Below, piece by piece: positions 23,667 to 39,908 of a stretch of 64,000 nt of DNA. Within the stretch, counting starts at the first letter, position 1. Every line of letters begins with the position of its first letter. Position numbers and translations under genes: made by a program. Source of the stretch: Microthyrium microscopicum. Lineage: Eukaryota; Ascomycota; Dothideomycetes; Microthyriales; Microthyriaceae. The stretch covers positions 534,748-598,747 of the forward strand of contig MU004242.1 of assembly GCA_010405405.1 (NCBI GenBank), written 5' to 3'. The notes below the pieces were generated by a model. The model searched no databases and was not told where the DNA came from. It saw nothing but the letters and a program-made list of their open reading frames with translations.

Positions 23667-26334
23667 TTAAATAACTGTGGTAGAAACCTCGGCGTATTTT
23701 GAACCAGATTGGTGCCAGACGGGTTTACTGTCAGCTGGAAACCCCTCTGATTCTTGGATTTTAGCATCGAACATCCGAAGCCTTGGATGGTTCATATCGG
23801 TGATATCCAGCATGGCTCCCAGTTCATGTTCGGTGACTGGGCAGGAACCACCAGCTGTTGTCCACTGCCCTGAACCGATTGTCCCATGGGCGATACGGTG
23901 CAGGTTTAGCGGATCATTCAAATTCCACTCAAGAGCTGCGAATTCACCGTTCTTTGACGCTCTGCCCACTACAGCAGGAACAACAAATGATACCAGAATT
24001 AACACGCCCCCAAGGACAAAGGTCAGAATCAATCCCACCAGATCAAAGTTCCTGAAGGATTCGCTTGTGATCTTCTGGCTTCCGCAGGCGCTCATTTCTT
24101 CGGTACCATTCGGTGACCAATACATGAAGCTCAAGGCCGGCACGGCAGATTTGATAGTAGCTGTCTGAACTCCATTTCCTTGGATCGTTGCCAGATATAG
24201 CTGGAACCAGTACTCCACCTCCGTTTGCCATTGATTTGTTGGCAGTGGATATATCAATCCTAACCAGCCATTGGCGAGTAGTTGCGATGGCTGGGATCCA
24301 ATTCCGGGCGGACTAAGTGAAGGCTAAATCTGTCAGTGTGCTATTCATTCATTGTATGGTCAGGGGTTAACTTTGCACAAATTGCAGCCACTCGCCAACA
24401 TAGCTTAACACAGCTGAGAGCCAAAACCTGAGAAGGTCATAGAATGATGCACTTACCTGAGTACCGAATGAGTTCAAGACTGATCGATTCATGTATACCC
24501 TGTCCTCGGTATCCCAGAGCTTCAGGTATGAGCTTAGAGTAGGGTAGATACCAGCCAGCGGTGTACACTTGGCAGATACAATGTTACATATCTGATGTTT
24601 GGTAACGCATCCCATTGCGCGGATAGGGTCGTCTCTGAAATAGTTCATGCCACCCCCCGGAATGACTTGTAAAGGTGTTTTCGCGGAAAACCACGTATCA
24701 TTTACAGGTTTGGAGAATCCAATATCGTTGAGCGAGAGGAATGAAATACTGTTATCGCCCAAAGAAGGGTCAAGTGCGTCGATCGGTCGCCATGCTCCAT
24801 TCTTGTTTGCACCAGTAGCACTAGTATTCTGATACGAAGAGAGTGAACTGGTAAGGTAACCCCAAATGTTAGTGGTAGACTTAAGAGAAAAGGAGTTGAG
24901 AAACTTACAATAGCGAGTACTCGAAACGTCTATAAAAGGAGCTAGACTTTTGTTAGTACAAGATTATGTTCAAATTGAACATGCATTAGAAAAGCCCTTC
25001 AGCGATTTCATTTCAGAACCATATAAGTTGTTATACGCGTCATCCTACTCAGTCGGTACCATGACGCTCACTGAGAGTTGCATTTCATGGAAATGGTGAA
25101 ACATTATGGCCCATTTGCCGGCATGACAGGTTTGAAATTCTTCAATAGCATCAAAGAATGCGGTTCAATATGGGAAACCCTTACCTGTTGTGAATCGGCG
25201 GGTCAGTAGGATACTGGTAAGTATAGTTCGCGCCCTGTGGGCCGAGCCCAGTGTAGTAATTTCCAAGGGTTGACCCGTAGTTGTAGTTTAGATACTCCCG
25301 GATTCGCCCTGTCTGGTTGATGCTAACAGTCGTGGTGTAATTCTGGGTCGAAACTGGAGAGCAAGTCATAACGACTCTCCTGGAAAATCGGCGAAAGGAT
25401 GGAGCTGGTATCTGTTAGTCACTGTGAGATAATACTCAGACTTGCACACGCTGAAAAGACCATGATGTCAACCCTGTGACAGGCTGACTTGCTTGTGGAA
25501 GTCATCGCAATGGGTGGACCTCATATCGCCCTGTCAAAAACAGTGCTGAGGAGCCGCTTTATGCGATGACAACCACGAAATGTCAAGAAGCTATTGAAAG
25601 TAGAAGTGTGACCTGCAGGGGGTATCGTACCATTAAGCCCCATGTCGAGGTTGCCGTCAATTACCCCAGAGTCGAAGGTTATTGGCTTGGAGTCACCATA
25701 ACAGATATTGTCGCCCCCTGGGTATGGACAGTCGTCGCTCGTGACTTGGTAGGGAAGACTTCGTCTGATATATGTTGGGCAGTCTTGATTGAATGAGCTG
25801 TTCCTGTAGCATGATGCAACACGAGTGGTGGGATCTTGAGATGCTTTAGAACCGGACTGGATAATGAGCTGCTGTGTTGAAGCATTGATCAGGTGTAATG
25901 TTGAGCCGAAACCACAACCATCACCTTTTAGCAGTACCTGGCCATCGGCGCTAGATATCAAGGAAGATAAAATTCCAGTACTTGTCAGTGCTATCTGGAA
26001 GATTATTCCGAACACCACAATAGGTAACAAGGTAACGATCACCGTGGCACTTTTATGCTCTCTCCACCAAGCCCAGAACACCGAAACAAGGTTCATGATG
26101 CCCGAAGATGCGTTATTTGAGTTTCTTAATATGATCTGTCGTTGTTGTTGCAGTGCATCTCGAGAGTTTTGGTGACTAAAGTGGCGATGGAGGAGGAAAC
26201 AGCAGATGGTCCATAGACAAGAACCTGCCGTAGCGGTGAACAAAGCGATAAATGCCACGAGAAACGATGCAGATCTCGTGTTCAGTGTGATGGTTTTCCC
26301 CCTAATCATGCCATTGGCATAATTGGTCCATAGC
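23667..26334 (-). CDS. Large multi-pass membrane protein, exons 2-6 (first exon displaced by a transposon)
   Basis: Exons 26334-25631, 25404-25185, 24941-24909 (33 bp), 24847-24457 and 24290-23667 join in consistent phase. Introns are 226, 243, 61 and 166 bp. With the displaced exon 1 at 36410-36447 the product would be 669 residues, counting its stop codon as a residue. The beginning GLWTNYANGMIRGKTITLN and a hydrophobic LVAFIALFTATAGSCLW match an uncharacterised Leotiomycete membrane family that usually starts with a short exon ending VYxG. Further membrane spans are at VIVTLLPIVVFGIIFQIAL (near residue 120) and LVGLILTFVLGGVLILVSFVV near the C-terminus. The large luminal part has many N-glycosylation sites and Cys. 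Function unknown. If exon 1 is lost or nonsense, translation could restart at ATG 26309. Confidence 0.75.
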
Positions 26335-26444
26335 CTGTATAATCTGTTAGTTATCTTGACACGAGTGTTAACTATCTCATCAATTGTCTGCAGCTAAATT
26401 AAGTATACTGAATGCCAAGTTATATCGCACTTGAGGCAGATATA

Positions 26445-26452
26445 CCTTAGAG
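26445..26452. repeat. Target-site duplication, left copy
   Basis: CCTTAGAG directly abuts the left terminal inverted repeat and recurs at 36350-36357. The direct repeat can be extended to 11 bp (ATACCTTAGAG, 26442-26452 and 36347-36357), because the element end also reads ATA. Confidence 0.88.
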
Positions 26453-26474
26453 TATGCTAGGGCATAGGTTAGGT
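26453..26474 (+). repeat. Left terminal inverted repeat
   Basis: 22 bp, identical to the reverse complement of 36328-36349. It keeps TpG and CpA dinucleotides, unlike the interior. Confidence 0.9.
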
Positions 26475-29400
26475 AACCTATTAGGGTTAACCTAATATAT
26501 ATAGGTTCTTAGCGTTAGGTTAGGTTTTAAAAATATTTTATAAAACCTATACCTAACCTAAGTAAAATAAAATTATTATAGGTTAGACCTAAGGAACCTA
26601 AAGGACCTAAATTAGAGACCTATTAAGTAAGGTTTATTTAGTACGTAACTTATTTAGGTTATAAAGGAAGAGTTACTATACCTAATATAGTTAGTAAAAG
26701 CTAAGTAGGTAAGAATAATTTAGTATATAAATTAAAGAGTTAGAAAAGTATTAATTAGAATATTTAGTATAGTATATAAATTAAACTATATATTAACTAG
26801 CTATTACTACTAAAACCTTAATAATTAGTTTAAATCTTCTTCTTTTTATTAATTTTACTAGAGACTATACTTATTAGTAGTTACTTTTACTTATTCTCTA
26901 ATTCTTATTAGAAAATAGACTTAAATATTAGTTTATAAACTCTTTTATTAGTAGCTACTATAAATAGAAGCCTACTAATATCTTTTAGTAATTATCTATA
27001 AAAAGAGTCTTAAGTATTACTATTCTTTACCTTATTACTATTCTTACTATTATCTAAATCTATATTATAAAATCTAAAAAAGGTCTTTAAGCTTATAAAT
27101 CTACTAGTACTAATATTCTTAAGGTTTTCTTCTTTTTTAGTAAACCTAAAACTAGTATCGTTTTTATTATTAAAACTATCTTTATTAGCTTTATCTACGT
27201 CCTTATTTAAAATATTATTATCTTTACTTAAATTATTTAAATTATCTTCTTTATTAGAAATAATAGGTAACCTATCTAAATCTTTATAATAAGTTATATA
27301 ATTAAATATTTAATAGTATATAGTATTAAGATTATTAAAATAAATATAATTAAGTAGAGTATTTATAGATTATTTTATAATTATATTAATATATTTTTTA
27401 TATATACTAACTTTTACTTTAATCTTATTAGAACTACCTTAATAGTCTAAAATATTAGCTATTAATTTAGTAAACTTATTATTATTATATTAGTAGAGTA
27501 TATTTTATAATAGTATAAGGTTATAAAATATCTAAGAAAAGTAGAAATAATTATATTTAGATTAGTTATAAGTAATAAAGAAAATACGTTCTACTTTAAC
27601 TTTAATAGCTAATATATAAAGATAATTACGTATTATATAAGCTATTATTAGGTAGAGGTCTAAATTATTATTTTCTTTTTATATAAAGAAGAGATTATTA
27701 TTCTTTATAGATACTATTATTATATTAGTAAATTATAAATAATATAATAATAAAGATATACTACTTTTAAAGTATTATATAAACTTATTAGATAAAGATA
27801 AGCTAGTTAGGCTATTATTTACTATAACATTATTATTATCTATAATTAGTTCTATATTATTAGATTAAGTATTTAAATTACTATACTTCTTAAGCTAAAC
27901 TTTATAAAGGTCTTTAATTATTACGTTATATTAAAATAAACTATTTAAACTAGGGTAGTTTTTCTACTAAGGATTAATAAAGATAAACTTAGTTATATAA
28001 AGAGATAATAACTAACTAAAAGTATAAATATACTATAGTTAAATATTAATTTATATTAAGTTAAAGTATACTTATAGTTTTCTTTAAGCCTCTTTTAGAC
28101 TAGACTAAAGTTTACTTTACTAATATAATTAAGTACTTACTAATATATATTTACCTAGAATAGCCTTCTTATTATTAATATATTAGAAAAGCTTTTAAAA
28201 GTATAAAAGGACCTTATAAATAAATAGAGCCTTAGATTTATTAAGAATTTAGGTTATAGCGTTAAATAGAGTAGTAAACTAAACTAGATACTTAATATTA
28301 GCTTATTTTATATTAAATAGTATAAGAATCCTTATTTATTATTAATTCTTTTTTTTTTTAGCTTTATAAGCTTTAATAATAAAGAAGTATATAAGGAGTA
28401 TCTTAATAATTTAAAGGTAAAATCTTATTATTATTATTAAGTCTTAGCGTATTTTAATATCTTAGATTAGCTAAAAGTTACTATAAAGATTAAGATTATT
28501 CTAGTATTTATTAATAAAGTATAAATTAAATATTTAGGATTTATTAAAATAAAAACTAGCTAAGTAAATAAAGAACTTAAGGAGATATAGTTTAAAGGAG
28601 CTAATATACTTAGTAATACTATAAGCCTAGACTATATTAGCTATTCTAATTAATACTTTTTTAACTTACTAAAAATAAAAACTAACTTACTTTATATAAA
28701 GTAAGAGTAACTAAGCTATATTTTATAATAAGTTTCTTCTCTTTTAAAATATCTTCTTTAATAAATACTTATTTAATTTCTTTATTTATAGATTTATAGC
28801 TAAAATAAAAAAGTAAAGCGCTTTATACTAATTAAATAATATAGAATATATAAGGAACTTAAATAATACTTATAGTATGCTTAAAGTATTAATATATATT
28901 TAATATAAATACTATTATTTTATTATTACTAACGTTATTAATTATAATAGAATAAACCTTCTTAGTAATACTATATTAATTAAATATATTACCTATAAGT
29001 TTAGTATAAGCCTTACTTATAAACTTTCTAATAGTAAAAAGAAAACTAAGAAGCCTTTTCTTCTATTCCTACTATAGAGTAATTTATTATCTAATAATAG
29101 CTAAGTATCCTTTATAAATAAAATTTAAAGACTACCTATTTAGCTAAACGCTAATATATATATTATTACCTAGCTAAATAAACTCTTTTCTTAACTTTAT
29201 AAAATTAATTATAACTTATTTTATAACTTCTAAAGTAATAGTTTTTTATAAAGCAAATTAAGGTTAAATACCTAGTAGTATATAATAATTAATAACTTAC
29301 TATATAAATTATAATTTAAATATATTAAAAGAAAGACCCTTAGTCATAATTAAATACACTTATAAAGTAAAAAAATCTTATAATATAATCTTACGCCTAT

Positions 29401-31959
29401 TAAAGCTATAAGTAGCCTTAAGCTTTACGTTATATATCTATAAATATTATAATTAATAATAGTATAGCATAGTAAGAATTAAATATACTAGAGTTATAAT
29501 TAATCTTATTTAATTAAGTATAATCTAATCTTTATTACCTTTAGCTATAATAATATTATTATAATCTTAGGAAGTAATATACTTATTAAGTAATCCTTAC
29601 CTAATAAAGAAAGTACTAGTATTATTTTTATAAAAGTAGTAGTATTTAAGAAACTTATAATAATAAATATAGTAATAATAAAGCTAGCTAGTAAACTTAA
29701 AAGCACTTATTTATATATTATCTTAAATAGGACTTTTTTTCTTACTATACTAATAAGAATCTATTTATATAGAAATTAGTCTTTTTTAGTTAGTAGTAAA
29801 CTAGGATATAATTTACTACTAAGTCTAAAAATAGTTATTAGTATTCTTACTTTATAAATATACTTTCTTTTCTTAATTACTAGATTCTTCTAATACCTTA
29901 AGTATTATATTAGAAATAAGAGAAGTAAGTACTAGTAGGCTAGAAGGTAATATACTAATAAGAAAGTTTAAGATAGTACTATTAGTAGTAATATCTCTAT
30001 CTTAGATAGTAGATTATAATAATAAGAAGGAAGTTATTAAGCTAGCTTTAGATATAAAGAAATTAAAGGTAGAAGTAAAGGAAGATATAATTTAAGGTAG
30101 TATTAACTTTATTAAAAAAACTTAAGGTTTTAAAGAAATAAAATTAGTAAGTTAAAAAAGTATTAATTAGAAATCTAGTACTATTTATATTATCTTATAA
30201 TACTATTTATAGAAACTTTTATTTATCCTTTCTCCTTTTTTAATATTAATTAATTATACTCTATATTCTAATTATCTACTTTCTAATTATACTAATTTAA
30301 TTAATTTAGTAATTTAGAAGGTAACTAATATAACGTATTTCTCTTCTTAACCTTTTATATTATTATACTATTAAACTCTTTCTTAATCTATTATATTTTT
30401 TAGCTCTCCTTAAAACTACTTAGCTTAGTTTCCTTTCTCTAAAAGTAATTCTATAAACTAGAAATCTATAAAGTTATTCCTTTATATAATCTATACTTAG
30501 TCTAGTTATTACTAGTAGTTAGCTATCTTATTTTTCTTAACTAATATATTTACTAAAAAGTAATACTAGTTCTACTTAGGTAGTTATAATATACTATATA
30601 AAACGTACTAAATTTAAAAATTATTTCTATAATTAACTTTATTATACTACTTAATATAATATTTAAACCTTAAAGTAAGAATATCTTAATAGCCTATTAA
30701 TCTCTATACTTAATTTAAAAAGATAATATATTAATTAACCTTTATTATATTTTTCTTATTATAATAATAAAAAATACTATCTAAATTAACTTACTTATAT
30801 TTTTATATTTAAATAATAATTAAATAGTAGAGAATATTTTAGTCTAAAAATAATTATAAGGCTAAGGATAGGTAACTAAGGTACTTTTTATTTTAATTAT
30901 CTTTAGTTATAAAGGTTATACTACTAGAAAAAATTATAACTATTATTAGTAGCTATTTAAGAAGTATTACTATTAAAGTACTTACTAAAAAATAATAATT
31001 AGCTACTTATAAATTATATAGCGCTTTTATATAGAAAGTTTTAGAATTATAGTCTTAAAGAGTAAATAAGTATAGATATTAATAGTAGAAAGTATAAGTA
31101 GTATTATTATTATTATAGTAATTTAAGTTTATACTATTTATACTAACTAAAAATATTTATAATAGATTCTTTAAAATTTATTATATAAAAGTATATAATT
31201 ATAATAGTAAAAGTTTGCTTAGTATAATAAGATAACTTTTATTATAATTTATTCCTAAAATTTACTACTTAGAAGAGTAGTAAGATAAATATAAATACTA
31301 CTAAAAATTTAGTAAAGAAAAGAAGATAAAAAAATAATAATAAATAAAATCTAAAGTAAAAAATAAAGTTAGTATTATAACTTAAATAAACTTATAAAAG
31401 TTAAAAAGTTATATAGACTTAAAGAGTTTAAAATTATAGTCTTAGAATATAGCTATATTTAATAATAATATATAAATAATTTATTATAAAGAGTTAGAAG
31501 TAATAAAACTTATTAAGACTAATATTTTATAATTAAGGCATACTAAACTTTATACTAATATTAAGCTACTATTAAGACTAAGTTTTAAGAAGTTATAAAA
31601 ATATTAATTAAAATCTAGGAAGTTTATTATAGCTTCTACTTTTTAAAATATTTATTTATTATAGTATCCTTTTCTTATTAGTTTAAACTAAGTTCTATTA
31701 AGTTAAAGGCTAATATTCTAAATATTCTTATTTACTATAAGCTATAAATTATTCTATAACTTACTCTATTAAGTTATTTACTCCTTTTAATTAGTTACTA
31801 TATAATCTATACTTTATTAACTTTTATTATATTACTCTAGCTTATTTTATTATTTTAATATAACTATATTCTTTTTAACTTTATTTACTTATTTCTTAGA
31901 ATTTCTTTCTTAACTTTAAATTCTTTATAATCTCTATACTTATCTTTATTACTTTTTTT

Positions 31960-32345
31960 TTATCTATTTATAACTTTATCTTTTTCTTTTAACCTATTTA
32001 TAATCTTATACTCTTCTTTATATACTATACTTTTCTTTATTACTCTCTTCTAATCTACTTATAATCTTATACTTCTCTTTATATACTATACTCTTCTTTA
32101 TTATCCTTTTTTAACTTACTTATAACCTTATACTTCTTTTTACTTATTATATTCTTTTTTATTCTTTTTTTTTAACTTACTTATAACCTTATACTCTTCT
32201 TTATATATTATACTCTTCTTTATTCTCTTCTTCTAACTTATTTATAACCTTATACTTTTCTTTATTTATTATACTTTACTTTATTACTTTCTTTATACTT
32301 ATTTATAACTTTACTTTTTTACTCTCTTCTTATCTATTTCTTCTC
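31960..32345. repeat. 61-bp tandem repeat inside the element
   Basis: The word TTATAA[TC]CTTA (or TTATAACTTTA) recurs at 31998, 32059, 32120, 32181, 32242 and 32303, exactly 61 bp apart. The intervening CT-rich sequence is similar between units. A half-period copy lies at 31968. Sixty-one is not a multiple of three, so this is probably non-coding. Confidence 0.8.
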
Positions 32346-35170
32346 TATTAATAAAAATAAACTATAAAACTCTTACTACCTATTTTATAACTTTTTATTC
32401 TTATTCTTTATATATCTTTAGTATTATTAAATAGGTATTATTATTTAAGTTATTTTTTTTACTAATATTTTTTATAAATAATAATATTAATAGTAAAGAA
32501 AAAAATATATAATTAATAAACTACTAATATTCTATATTTTAAAGAAATATTTATTTACATTATATTAGAAGTTTTTTAAGCTACTAAGTTAACTTTATTA
32601 ATACTAGCCTATTATTAATACTATATTTAAGTTATAATAAAGGTTTTATTATATTTATAAAATAATTTTTCTTAGGCTTAATTATTACTTACTACTAATA
32701 CTATTTATATATACTCTTTTTTTTAAATAACTAAGAACTTAGATTTAGACTAAGTTATTTATATTAATATATTCTTAAAGTAATTTCTTAATAAATAAAT
32801 ATTTAAAATATAAAAGAAGAGTCTATAAGATAGAAAGATAGCTTAAGAAGTTATAAAAGAAATTATTATATTTTTATCTTATTAATTTAACTATATAAAA
32901 GAAACTTATAGTAATAAGTTAAAGACTTATAGCTAATAAGAATAGTATAAATCTATAATATAGCTTATAAATTAAAAATCTTAGTTTTTAAAATAGAATT
33001 AGCGTCTTTAATTAAAGCTAATAATAAATAATTAGAAAATATAACTATTTATATTAGAGCCTAACTACTTATTATATTAAGATTATAAAGTTAAAAATAG
33101 TAAGTTAGATTTATATAAGTTAGAATAAATAGTTCTATTTTAGTATTCTAATATTTTAAATAGTACTATATTTATAATTTTATTTTTTAATTAATATTTA
33201 ATTATACTTTATTAAGAAAATATTATTTTTTAAAACTCTAATTAAAGCTAATACTAATTAATAAGTATTCTTATTCTATCTAAATTAAGTATTAGTTATA
33301 ATAAACTAACTTATATCTACTAAAGGAACTAGAAAGAATCTTACGCTTAAAGCTAAATATAAGTAAATCTTTACTACTAACTTCTTAAACTTTATTAATA
33401 TCTTTTATATTAACTTCTAAGCCTCCTTTTAAAGCTTTAGGGTAAATAAACTATTAATTTCTTAAACTTTTTAATTTTTTATCTTTTAAATTGCCTTATT
33501 AAATAGTATCTCTTCTTAAAAGTTAGGGTACTAAGTTATTAAATTTATAATTATTTTTTACTTTATTTTAGTAAAAATAAGACTAGTACTAAGAAGATAA
33601 CTACTATATTTATAATAAGTCTAGAAATTTATTAGTATTAATTTTAGTATTAGCTTTATTATATCTTATAATTACTTTATAGAATAATTTTAGAAGTTTC
33701 TTCTAGGTATAAATTAATAGCTAATATTTATAGTTAAAGTCTACTAACTCTTAATTCTTCTTTTAATTCTTTATAGTATATAATCTAGTAAAGTTTAGAA
33801 AGTATTTTTTATATAATATTAATTAAATTTATATATACTAAGTATAAAAAACTTATATTAAGAGTTTTTATAAGAATAAGAATCTAAAGATAGTAATAGT
33901 CCTTAATAAAGTTAGTTTCTTTATTAGCTAAATTTTTAATAGTATAACTAATAAGAAAAATATTATAAATAGCTTCTTACTATTTATAAGTAAGGTTAAC
34001 CTAAGAGAAAAATAAAATTTATAAATTACGCTTTTAGTAACTATACTTATAAAAGAGTTAATAAAATTTTAGATTAAAAGTAATTTAAGAAGCCTTCTTA
34101 AAAATAATATAGCTAGTAATAATATTATAATTATAAGTAATACCTTTATTAGCATTAATATATATATTACGCTACTTAGACTTTTTATATTTTATTTTTA
34201 TTAATTCTTAATAGTAAGCTAATAGAGTAATAATAATAGAATATAGTCTAGTTTAATAAGTAGTATACTTAGGTTTCTAGCTAAATAATTCTATAGATTT
34301 ACTAGTATTAATATTAAGAGAAATTAATAAAGAAAATCTAATAGTAAAAAAGTATATATTACTCTTATTTAGAGAGTTTTATATAAGTAAAAAGAATAAT
34401 AATACGTTAGTCTTTAGAAGCTTCTTAGTATTTTATAGTCTTATACTTTTTATTATTTTTATAATTAATATAAGCATTATTATTCTTCTTAAAATAATTA
34501 TATTCTATAGTATAGCTATTAAGATTAATATAATAAGTATAATTCTTAATTATATAAGAATTTTAAGATAATTAATTTATAAGCTTCTTAGTACCTATAC
34601 TAAGAGAATAAAGTTTTAGAGAGTTAAATAAGTATTAATTAAGCTAAGAAACTAAAACTAAGACTAATAGAGAAAATATAGAGATTATTATTACTAATTA
34701 AAAGAGAATATATAAAAGAAGTTAAAGTATATAAGTAATATAAAGTAGTATATATATATAGTCTTCTAAGTAATACTCTTTAGAATATATTAATTCTAGC
34801 GCTAAATTATAATATTCTTATTATTTTAAGTTAGCTTTATTATTACTTACTCTTTTTTATTACTTTACTTTTTTTAATTAGTTAAGCTTTTAAAGTTTTA
34901 AATTATATTAATTTAATACTCTAAATATTTTCTCTCTATAGAGAAATATTAAGAGATAGTTTTTAATAAGTAATAAGCTTACTTCTTATATCTTTAAAAA
35001 ATTTATTTATTCCTTCTTTTCTAACTCTTTCTACTTCTTTAAGATTTCTAAGTTCTTTTTACTTTTACTATCTAGACCTTTACTACTTTAAAGAGCTTTA
35101 TTACTATTATAGTATACTTAAATAACCTTAATTTTTTTCTCTTTATACTTCTTTAGACCTTAATAAACTT

Positions 35171-35410
35171 TATAATACTTTAAATCTTTTTATATAACCT
35201 TTATAAATTACTCTAGCCTAGTAATAACTTTTATAGCTTTTAAACTTTTTTATAAATTCTTTATAAACTACTCTAATCTAATAGTAACTTTTATAGCCTT
35301 TAAACCTTCTTATATTATCTTTATAAACTACTCTAACTTAGTTATAATCTTTATAAACTTTTATATATTAATAGTAATCTTAATAAACTACTTTATACTA
35401 ATAACTAACT
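35171..35410. repeat. 60-bp tandem repeat inside the element
   Basis: TTATAAA[TC]TACTCTA recurs at 35201, 35261 and 35321, with a diverged copy at 35381; units are 60 bp with a weaker 30-bp subperiod. The period is a multiple of three. In one minus-strand frame, if TAA/TAG are taken as former CAA/CAG, the unit reads as a Leu/Gln/Lys-rich 20-residue repeat. Confidence 0.75.
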
Positions 35411-36327
35411 CTTTAGCGCTAATAAAACCTAGCTATAGCTTATAAAAACTATTATAAAAAAGCTTTAACTTAGAGAAACTATTATAACTAGTAAAATACT
35501 TATTATTATATATTTTAATATATTAAACTTAGTAGTAAGTTTTATATACTCTATTTTTTCTATAAATATTAATTATAATATTAGTAAAAGCTTTATATAA
35601 AATTTACTAGATTTAGAAAGCTTATAATCTTTTAATTCTTAAAATATTATTTATAAGATTAGTTTATAAGATTTATATTATATTCTAAGGAACTTCTAAT
35701 AATAATAGTAGTTTAATAAATCTAAATATATATTAGTAAAGTAATATAATTTAATATCTATAAGAATTAATAGAGGCTTATCTTATTATATACTTTAAAA
35801 GTAAGTTATACTTCTATTTTCTAAATTATAAGTTATTAATTTTTATAAACGCTAACCTTTATATAATTTATATAAAGAGAGTAATAATCTAGTAAAAGAA
35901 TATAAACTTAGTAAAAGCTTTATATATTAGCTAGATTATAGACTATTAAATAAGTATTTAAAATTAACTAGTAACTTTATTATAAAAAGGTAATTAGAAT
36001 TAGTAAACTTTAGGAAATAGAAAGAGAATTATAGTTATATAATTATTTATAAATAATAGAACTAATAAACTAATTCTAAATCCTAATTAATACTTTTATA
36101 ACTTACTAAAAAATTAGTAATAAGATATAATTATTAAATACTATATTAAACTTTTTAGATTAATCTAAATTATATAGTATTAGTCCTTTATTTAGGTTAT
36201 CTATTAATAAATATAACTTATAGGCTAGACTTATAAAAACCTAACCTATTTAGATTAAGTTATAATATTTCTAAAACCTAACTTATATAGGTTATAAAAA
36301 TATTTAGAGAAACTTATACCCAACCCA

Positions 36328-36349
36328 ACCTAACCTATGCCCTAGCATA
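36328..36349 (-). repeat. Right terminal inverted repeat
   Basis: Perfect 22-bp inverted match to 26453-26474. Confidence 0.9.
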
Positions 36350-36357
36350 CCTTAGAG
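36350..36357. repeat. Target-site duplication, right copy
   Basis: CCTTAGAG, identical to 26445-26452. Confidence 0.88.
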
Positions 36358-36409
36358 AGGTAAACTTAAACGCGCTTTCTATATCGTTCGACAGGATCGG
36401 AGGTCTTAC

Positions 36410-36447
36410 CCTTAGTAGACTTCTGATACAAGGACCGACGTATTCAT
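36410..36447 (-). CDS. Displaced first exon of the membrane-protein gene, with in-frame stop
   Basis: On the minus strand an ATG at 36447 opens MNTSVLVSEVY, then TAA (36414-36412), then GG and a strong donor GTAAGA at 36409. The exon ends in phase 2, which fits the acceptor before 26334 and would give VY-stop-GLWTNYANG. Relatives of this family have VYxG followed by W[TV]N, so the frame and position fit well. A CAA-to-TAA change would be a C-to-T change at CpA, as RIP makes. Removing the element and one duplication copy leaves a native intron of about 170 bp, in line with the gene's other introns. Confidence 0.55.
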
Positions 36448-37641
36448 GCTGGGAGTCGTGGTTTGTCTAAATCACGATTGCAGATTTCGGATAATGTAAC
36501 AGTGAGCAATTAGATTGAGATGAATTCATGATTCAATTCTAAAAACATTTTTCGCGTCCCAGCAGGAGTCGTAAGCTTTCTTATCACAACCGCATCCAGA
36601 CTCACCACAAGAAAATGCAGCCTCCAACTGGGGGCCAAATGGGCGTTATGGCGGCGGCGTCTGACCATTTTCGTGTGTGAGTCGTGAACCGGTACCTCAA
36701 CACAAACGAGTATTGACACCGGAAAACCATCAAATAAAAAGCTATTCTAATGTAAACCAGGGGGAACTTTGTAACAACCAAACGTGCGGGGGAGTGGTGA
36801 TATCTTGGGCTTTATTTGCCAATACCATCTCGCGATGTTAAGCCTTATTACAACAGTCTGTGCCTTGAAGATAGGTTTAAGCGAGAAAGTTGGCCTGCAG
36901 TATCTGTGGCGTCGTAAACCCTGATACACATTAGAGTCAAAGTGTACTGTCCTGTGACTAATGTGATGGTGGCGTTGTATGTTGGTTTCTCCAGAGCAAA
37001 CATTGAATAAATATCTGCATGATAGGGGTAGGTTTGTTTCTTACTGAATTAAATGGCTTCGTTTTGTAAGGCGGGTAACATAATAAATTGGTCTCATAGT
37101 TGAAGCATTTGGATTATTACTGCTCTTCTTCCTTGATTTAGAATCTGAACAACTTAGAACACTGATGAAATAAGCATTTTTTGGGGCGACCTCGACAACG
37201 CCTTACAACTTCTGCGATATAGATCTCGAGAACTTAAAGTTGTGTGTAAAGAAAATTGAGATAATCTTCCCTATCAGAAAATTAAGATAACTTCTTTATA
37301 CACAATGAAACTCTATAATTTCAGTTTAGTTTAACAGACGCAAATGAGTGAGTTCTACCAATCTGGCATATGTGAATAGCGCGGGTAGATATATTAAGAT
37401 AAATTGATTCGCAGTAGCGTGGCCCTTCCTCTTGGATTGTCAATCCGTAAAGGGTATTTGTGACGAGAACATCTATATCTCGATACTTCTATATTACTTC
37501 CCCAATCTCAAAAACTGTTCAGATAAGGCTCAGGGTCGACCAGGATTAGAAATCATCATATATCCCAAGACCTTCGTTTCAATCTTCAAATGCTTGACTT
37601 GACGACATGCGGACAATCTTGAACACCACCGCCTTCCAAAC
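36448..37641. other. 1.2-kb intergenic region
   Basis: Base composition returns to normal here. No gene is seen. It holds a small imperfect inverted repeat (37240-37305) and the promoter of the S28 peptidase gene. Confidence 0.55.
37240..37305. repeat. Short inverted repeat / hairpin
   Basis: TTGTGTGTAAAGAA (37240-37253) pairs with TTCTTTATACACAA (37292-37305) at 13 of 14 positions. The loop contains a near-direct repeat AAAATT[GA]AGATAA. It may be a tiny MITE-like remnant or chance. Confidence 0.4.
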
Positions 37642-39908
37642 ATGATATTCCAGGCCTTGTTGAAGTGCGCCCTACTAGCCGGCACAGCATTTGCAGAATT
37701 GAAGTCTCTTCAGTCCGTCGCGTCGGGATTCAAGACCACTGAAGGTTATTATGTTGACCAAGTAGATGTTAGTATCTTGATTTCCCATTTATTTTAGAAG
37801 CTTCTTCCTCTTTTGATGTTGTAGTGATGAGGAATTTTCACTCATAATATGGCAGAAATACGCTCCTCCGCCTTCGAATGACTTGAAAGCGCGTTTCCCA
37901 ACTCATTACTTTGAAACGTCTATCGATCATTTCAAGAATGAATCAAGATATGAGCCACATACCACCGAAAAGTTCAAATTACGGTACTGGTTTAACAAGG
38001 ACTATTACAAGGTAACTCGCTTGACCTAGACTAATGTTCAATTACATGCTAAAATGTGATAGCCTGGAGGGCCAGTCTTCGCGATCATTGGAGGAGAAGT
38101 AAAACATCTAGCAACAGATACTCATTGCTTGATACACTGACATTTTTGCAAGGCGCCAGCTAATGGCAGATTGCTCTACTTGGATTCAGGAGTTGGAGGG
38201 CGTTTAGCGAAAGCGTTTTCTGGACTCACTGTGCTGATAGAGCACAGATACTACGGAGAATCCTTTCCAGTCAAGAATCTAACTGTGGAGAGTCTTCGCT
38301 TCCTGTCGACCCAACAAGCATTGGCTGATCTGACCGATTTTGCCAGCCAAATCAAGTTCCCAGGAATTGGCGAGACTGTCACAGCCCCAAATACGCCTTG
38401 GATTGCTTACGGAGGTTCCTACTCTGGTGCATTAGTCGTAAGTACAGATTTATGTATAACGGCAACAACTCCTGATCTTTTCTAGGCATTTTTACGAAAG
38501 CTATATCCAGATACCTGGTATGGAGCAATAAGCAGTTCAGGAGTACCAGAGGCCATCGTTGATTTCTGGCAATATCAGGAAGCTGCTCGACTCTATGCTC
38601 CTAAGGACTGCGTCAAGGCAGCACAAGATACCGTTCAACTTGTCGATGGCATCCTCATGGGCAAAGATAAAGCACTCAAAATAAAGTTAAAAGCACTAGC
38701 TGGTCTACCTGAACAAGCTGATGACAGAATCTTCGCTGAGCTGCTCGGCGGCAGCGGCTTGGAAGGCTGGTAGGAATTTCTCTGGTCCGCAATATGAAGC
38801 TTACCTGAGCTAATGATTTCACCAGGCAATCCAGACATTGGCATCCTAAGCAGAGCGAAGGTTATTCGGATAATTCGTGTCGACGTACTTTGGCCAAATC
38901 CACCATAAGCCAACCAGGCACGGAAGCAAAGCGAGATTCTATCGAAGAATTGATGAAAGCAGTGAATCTCGACATTGAAGATGTCACTGTAAATAGGCTG
39001 TTGAACAAGCTTGCGACTGTTCAGAGGACTGCTGGTGCATTGTGTGCACTATCGGGTAAAGCAAACTGTCTCTCGCCTCCAAAGGCTTCAGGTTCAGGAA
39101 TGCGAACGAGCACAGCAATTTCAGCATGGCGATCTTGGCCGTGGCAGTAAGTTTCATATTACCATGGTAAAGCTTTTGCTAACGATCTATAGGCTTTGCA
39201 CCGAGTATGTTCATAAAATGTAACTTCATTAAGTAAAACTGACATTGAAATAGATGGGGATATTTCATGACCGGCAACACACCGAAAGATATCAGACCGA
39301 TTATTTCACGCTTCAATGATGTAGAAAGCCAGAGTGCTTCATGCAGGGCGGCATTTAATACCACTTGGACTCAAGTCAACACCACCCGGATCAATCAATG
39401 GGGAGGTAGGAGAGCAAAAAGCTAAAGTATGCGAGAAAATGTACTAACGTGCGCCTTCAGGCATGAATATCTCTTACCCGAGATTGGCACAGCTATCAGG
39501 AGAATCTGGTAAACTAGCCTAAGAGATCAAAGATAAATCCTAAACTAACAACATGTAGATCCATGGAAGTGGGCAGGACCATCTTCTCCATATGCGATGA
39601 AACGTCAAGATACTATCGACGAGCCGTTCGTGGAGATCAAGGGCGCTGGACATCACTGTAAGCAATTTTCTATATTGGACGTCTTTGTTGGATTTAGCAC
39701 GGCAAGCTAAATTGATGCTAGGGGATACTATAGGCTTAGAAGAAGATGAGATCGAAGAAGGCAAGATCAAAATCCCTGAAGCTGTTGTACAAGTACAGGC
39801 GTACACAGAACGATTCGTGAAGAAGTGGTTAAATGGTAAAGTCAATTCGATGTTTCAAGAGATTGCAGCTAACAATTGTCAGACTTCAAAGAACAGAGGG
39901 CGAAGTAA
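37642..39908 (+). CDS. Serine carboxypeptidase-like protein, family S28
   Basis: Twelve exons: 37642-37767, 37856-38011, 38063-38098, 38153-38437, 38486-38769, 38826-39146, 39193-39204, 39254-39405, 39461-39508, 39559-39657, 39698-39835, 39883-39908. All joins keep phase and give 560 residues. S28 enzymes are secreted or vacuolar prolyl-specific peptidases. The signal peptide is MIFQALLKCALLAGTAFA. Landmarks are PGGPVFAIIGGE, HRYYGESFPV, the nucleophile motif YGGSYSGAL (Ser about 195), WRSWPWQLCTEWGYF, ISYPRLAQLSGESDPW (catalytic Asp) and EIKGAGHH (catalytic His). An apparent TAG at 38771 is inside a 56-bp intron. The residue after GAGHH is Ser, where relatives usually have Trp; the 40-bp intron there is the least certain join. 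The tail is short and acidic. Confidence 0.88.

Follow-up and report, generated by a model that had tools for sequence, protein, structure and literature searches.

The damage of a gene by a transposon together with leakage of the repeat-induced point mutation (RIP) that strikes the transposon is a kind of event already known. In Leptosphaeria maculans, RIP leakage beside repeats has been described, with premature stops, and in Neurospora it was reported to reach at least 930 bp, as quoted in the same source (from the excerpted text of PMC2973834). Here we describe a well-resolved, probable case in a window of 64,000 nucleotides from contig MU004242.1 of Microthyrium microscopicum, in which a hAT-like DNA transposon lies within the first intron of a gene for a transmembrane protein of an unnamed Pezizomycotina family. 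Microthyrium microscopicum is a dothideomycete of leaf litter, and, judged by their titles, the publications found on this species include no work on this locus. Our analysis covers one assembly of the species (36.9 Mb in 20 contigs), and coordinates are positions within the window.

The locus resembles the AvrLm6 region of L. maculans in that single-copy sequence beside a RIP-mutated repeat shows RIP-type bias and holds a premature stop. It differs in that the affected stretch is about 100 bp long, holds one stop and adjoins an intron insertion, and in that the changes themselves are read from one genome (AvrLm6 as presented in the sections seen of PMC2973834). With fungal hAT transposons the element has in common 8-bp target-site duplications (in 13 of 13 copies), terminal inverted repeats and a DNASNN-type block. 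Unlike them, it is 9.9 kb long, with most of its length lacking an assignment and the transposase represented by one degenerate block, and the C-terminal dimerisation domain was not recovered. Elements of the hAT superfamily are usually 3-5 kb in size. What is added here is the hAT-like assignment, a leakage signature that runs across exon 1, and the use of target-site duplication pairs as controls for leakage. Judging from the sequence, the account as a whole (insertion in intron 1, RIP, leakage to exon 1 and loss of the full-length protein) is very probable.

Exon 1 and the divided first intron

A preliminary description of this stretch, made from its letters, placed exon 1 on the minus strand some ten kilobases from the rest of the gene. 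The features that bear on this are as follows.

36410-36447, minus strand: exon 1, MNTSVLVSEVY-stop-G, ending after the first two bases of a Gly codon
36412-36414, minus strand: in-frame TAA at residue 12, a position occupied in relatives by L, V, T, I or Q
36404-36409, minus strand: 5' splice site GTAAGA
36350-36409, minus strand: 5' part of intron 1, 60 bp, single match in the genome, RIP-type dinucleotide bias
26335-26444, minus strand: 3' part of intron 1, 110 bp, single match in the genome
26346-26351, minus strand: branch site ACTAAC, starting 17 bases ahead of exon 2
25631-26334, minus strand: exon 2, starting G CTA TGG (LWTNYANG..)

On the minus strand exon 1 ends GTC TAC TAA GG, followed by GTAAGA, and exon 2 is preceded by a CAG acceptor at 26335, where ..ACTAACAGATTATACAG precedes GCTATGGACC at 26334. 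The phases of donor and acceptor match, and VY-stop-G and LWTNYANG join in phase 2. All of this agrees with what the preliminary description had proposed, and its estimate of the ancestral intron was also borne out: without the element and one 8-bp duplication, intron 1 measures 60 + 110 = 170 bp. The range of 61-243 bp that it gave for the other introns of the gene matches the annotated National Center for Biotechnology Information (NCBI) model, with 226, 243, 61 and 133 bp between exons 2-6. Today exon 1 lies 10,075 bp from exon 2. An origin of intron 1 as a repeated introner was ruled out, because each half has one match in the genome.

The preliminary description had suggested comparing relatives for a VYxG[VL]W start, and this comparison supports exon 1. 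The family (P0002 of Apiospora marii, P0008 of Xylaria acuta and others) has in common with this gene full-length similarity and the N-terminal motif; none of three members scanned gave a Pfam match above cut-off. At least three family proteins were found by a single-sequence search and at least 74 by a profile search, and the family may be larger, because either search scored only the approximately 8,000 best candidates. In the first 120 residues of the 76 proteins from both searches, the gene's own NCBI model included, an xxxGxW motif is present in 70, always in the form [VIA][YHQRFL]xGxW, and its Gly falls within the first 22 residues in 64 of those 70. The residue preceding this Gly, which corresponds to the position of the stop in exon 1, is L in 47, V in 10, T in 10, I in 2 and Q in 1. 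The six proteins that lack the motif are the NCBI model of this gene and P0010, P0049, P0064, P0069 and P0076. The model of P0069 (Xylaria curta) also begins late (MGSTLTLK).

Six paralogues in the same genome were examined (L011, L013, L014, L016, L020 and L022). In all six the motif is joined to the start Met, with L, I, T, V, Q and L, respectively, at the position of the stop. Weighing against our exon call, none of the six has an intron at this place, whereas in the present gene the intron lies inside the motif. The combination [VI][YHFQR]xG with an in-frame ATG and a phase-matched GTRAG donor occurs once on both strands of the window, at exon 1. In 3.6 Mb of Markov-1 random sequence, modelled on those parts of the window that lie outside the element, the same pattern came up three times, which corresponds to a chance of about 0.001 per 1.2 kb. 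The exon 1 and intron 1 calls are thus supported by the family N-terminus seen in other species and in the six paralogues, the canonical splice signals, and the element ends with an 8-bp duplication like those of the other copies.

The inserted element

The transposon does lie within intron 1, as had been proposed, and its anatomy is as follows.

26453-36349, minus strand: hAT-like DNA transposon, 9,897 bp, 17% GC, RIP-mutated, with its transposase block in the same orientation
26445-26452, no strand: target-site duplication copy, CCTTAGAG on the plus strand
36350-36357, no strand: target-site duplication copy, CCTTAGAG on the plus strand
26453-26468, plus strand: terminal inverted repeat TATGCTAGGGCATAGG
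36334-36349, minus strand: terminal inverted repeat TATGCTAGGGCATAGG
28826-28990, minus strand: degenerate core block of a transposase, found with a RIP-tolerant profile, in which NNVSNN aligns with the DNASNN of hAT transposases

A terminal search of the genome found 13 further left ends at 89-95% identity (14 including that of the window) and 12 further right ends at 89-93% identity. Seven of the 13 other left ends start exactly at the base equivalent to 26453 and the remainder extend some bases into the flank; on the right, six of 12 start exactly at 36349 and six one base beyond. The ends 26453 and 36349 are supported by the 8-bp duplications that fit them. Such a duplication flanks every one of the 13 two-ended copies (the window's included; loci L025-L037 and L049-L061), the two copies of it being identical in seven cases and differing at one or two positions in six.

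To address the superfamily, 12 hAT proteins were made into a likelihood profile tolerant of C-to-T and G-to-A changes, whose scores were set against a null of 40 column permutations. The catalytic part of the profile (columns 200-330) scored 32.5 bits in the window's copy against a null maximum of 21.6, and 30.8 bits against 25.4 in the C8 copy (L065). The reversed element gave 17.3 against 20.2. The inverted repeats at both ends, the 8-bp duplications and the catalytic block fit the hAT superfamily, in which duplications of this length are usual (PMC12730594, in part).

Several results pull the other way. Only one of three profile parts is clearly above the null: the middle part (columns 330-520) reached 22.1 against 21.7, and the C-terminal part (the PF05699 region) fell below it, with 20.1 against 21.8 in the window and 27.1 against 28.1 in C8. 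For the C-terminal part, the control L071 scored 39.1 against 19.5; it is not an independent control, having also been the query that retrieved the 12 hAT proteins. When all six frames of 26446-36347 were translated, with Q or W in place of stops, and compared with Pfam, no transposase domain came up, and three shorter pieces gave none either. In addition, Zisupton elements also make 8-bp duplications (same excerpt of PMC12730594), and thus the duplication alone cannot settle the superfamily. Elsewhere in the genome, away from all locations of this element family, PF05699 matched 17 hAT copies, every one of them interrupted by one or more stop codons. A search with PF18758 (KDZ) gave no match in the genome, its controls giving none either. 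A resemblance to the hAT C-terminal dimerisation domain on the minus strand at 27660-27480 was seen by eye only. We therefore call the element hAT-like, an assignment with good but not full support from its sequence.

The transposon also contains tandem arrays at 31974-32313 (61-bp units) and 35179-35415 (60-bp units), the latter translating on the minus strand into a 20-residue repeat interrupted by stops. A 475-bp short relative with the same ends, lacking the AT-richness of the other copies, is present elsewhere in the genome (L039:1505-1979, G000:C5). Its flanking repeats are GCTCTAGA and GCTCCAGA, with T on the left again. Adjoining it, at about 860-1460 of the same locus, is what by eye appears to be another element, with inverted ends of the GCCGGGTAGGCCGCAATGCGCTTCCG type and an AT-rich interior.

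Repeat-induced point mutation and its probable leakage into exon 1

The element is heavily RIP-mutated, as its composition shows (TA/AT of 1.58 and (CA+TG)/(AC+GT) of 0.03), and it is a repeat of many copies. The six unequal duplication pairs among the 13 hold eight differences, in each of which the left copy has T or A where the right copy has C or G, so that 6/6 informative pairs are altered on the left. Since the two copies of a duplication are identical at insertion, we read these differences as RIP leakage. The wider flanks point the same way on the left: compared with sequence at 200-1400 bp, left flanks were poorer in CA+TG within 50 bp in 13 of 14 copies (p 0.0015) and within 100 bp in 10 of 14 (p 0.010), a comparison that took in flanks that are themselves AT-rich (e.g., the left flank of C1a). 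With the window's copy left out, the 100-bp result was 10 of 13 on the left (p 0.0067) and 7 of 12 on the right (p 0.26).

In the window itself, the strong signal is on the right, the side of exon 1. The 100 bp from 36350 to 36449 have a (CA+TG)/(AC+GT) of 0.38, matched by one of 5,370 overlapping baseline windows, and in the next 100 bp the ratio is 1.78 and the RIP-type bias is gone. On the exon-2 side the values are 1.25 and 1.89, with no RIP signature, which is the reverse of the trend over the copies. Given that the exon-1-side stretch has one genome match, no detectable repeat is present there for RIP to target.

The TAA at 36412-36414 had been seen in the preliminary description and left unexplained. 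Because it lies within the 100 bp of extreme RIP-type signature, it is plausibly a product of leakage, and we lean towards a leaked RIP change rather than an ordinary mutation as its cause. Two points weigh against this. Over the copies, right flanks are not significantly depleted (7 of 13 within 50 bp, p 0.21; 8 of 13 within 100 bp, p 0.15), and only a Gln codon becomes TAA by one RIP-type change, so that an ordinary mutation from a Leu codon is possible; Leu is the commonest residue at this position (47/70), and Gln is rare (1/70, and one of the six paralogues). It is thus quite possible, although not what we favour, that the stop predates the insertion or is unrelated to it, either in a gene that was already dying or by an ordinary mutation after selection was lost. 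The confinement of the extreme bias to the 100 bp that hold the stop argues against such a coincidence.

A narrow search of the open-access literature found no precedent for reading RIP leakage from target-site duplications; in the excerpt seen of PMC3441728, 'leak' refers to stop codons and not to RIP. We tentatively propose, with nearly balanced confidence, that the duplication pairs are built-in before/after controls, in which leakage would leave preferentially by one end of the element, and that at this locus it may have left by the other, closing exon 1 in a loss of a gene by genome defence.

Fate of the gene

Downstream of the insertion exons 2-6 are open, and the gene has the following features beyond the start of exon 2.

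26307-26309, minus strand: internal ATG inside exon 2, start of NCBI model BT63DRAFT_443666 (MIRGK..)
25185-25404, minus strand: exon 3
24909-24941, minus strand: exon 4
24457-24847, minus strand: exon 5
23667-24323, minus strand: exon 6 with the stop codon

BT63DRAFT_443666 begins at ATG 26309, spans exons 2-6 and lacks exon 1, probably because gene callers do not accept an intron of this length. Our initial splice guess for exons 2-3 and 3-4 was dropped in favour of this model (P0001; introns of 226 and 243 bp), which is 97% identical to the initial version over 99% and identical letter for letter to the exon 2-6 model adopted here. The boundary between exons 2 and 3 can be moved by one base for the same protein, and the GT..AG version was used. 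The native upstream region of exon 1 seems to have been preserved, given the divergently oriented neighbour on the plus strand at about 37640-39900, which, from its open reading frame translations, we take to be a serine peptidase gene (S28-like).

We suggest the following course of events. As the anatomy of the locus shows, a hAT-like transposon inserted in the 170-bp first intron of the transmembrane-protein gene, duplicating 8 bp. This multicopy element has, by its composition, been heavily mutated by RIP, which may have leaked about 100 bp on the exon-1 side and, on balance, made the TAA at residue 12. The gene has in this way been hit twice, with exon 1 and the promoter side moved about 10 kb of AT-rich DNA, rich in decoy splice sites and poly(A)-like signals, away from exons 2-6, and exon 1 closed. 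Transcripts from the native start would presumably end or be misspliced within the element, and production of the full-length protein has most likely ceased. From its sequence, the gene is probably broken twice over.

The open state of exons 2-6, which encode 659 residues with GT..AG splice sites, suggests either a recent loss or a residual product from ATG 26309. A working truncated gene, transcribed from in or beside the element end and translated from ATG 26309 into the protein annotated by NCBI, would be compatible with the open exons and with the lack of a RIP signature on the exon-2 side (1.25, 1.89). Such a product would be without about 20 N-terminal residues and, by eye, would keep the first hydrophobic segment. 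We nevertheless consider it unlikely, since the lost stretch carries the GxW motif found in 70/76 relatives and three other ATGs, out of frame, lie between 26334 and 26309.

Far less probable is a gene that still splices out its 10,075-bp intron and yields protein, a different start being used to read exon 1. The donor, branch site and acceptor are intact, but even correct splicing would yield an 11-residue peptide, because of the in-frame stop. The element's minus strand also offers within the intron 22 GTAAG, 31 branch-plus-acceptor patterns and 60 AATAAA (raw counts, without comparison with AT-rich DNA), and one fungal gene predictor caps introns at 5,000 bp by default (PMC4363200, in part). 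Least credible of all is that 36410-36447 is a chance look-alike and ATG 26309 the real start, as the NCBI model and the intronless paralogues might suggest, given the chance expectation of about 0.001 and the presence upstream of that ATG of the rest of the family motif (LWTNYANG), which would be needless if the protein began at MIRGK.

For annotation, the locus is a trap, in that the database model is without the first exon. The target-site duplications suggest a wider use: being identical at birth, they may gauge RIP leakage in a single genome, with no need of a population sample. If our account is true, this gene clearly illustrates joint inactivation by a neighbouring transposon and by the defence directed at that transposon. 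Perhaps, and here we are more hesitant, the intron insertion could on its own have been tolerable, and it was the genome defence that made a gene loss of it.

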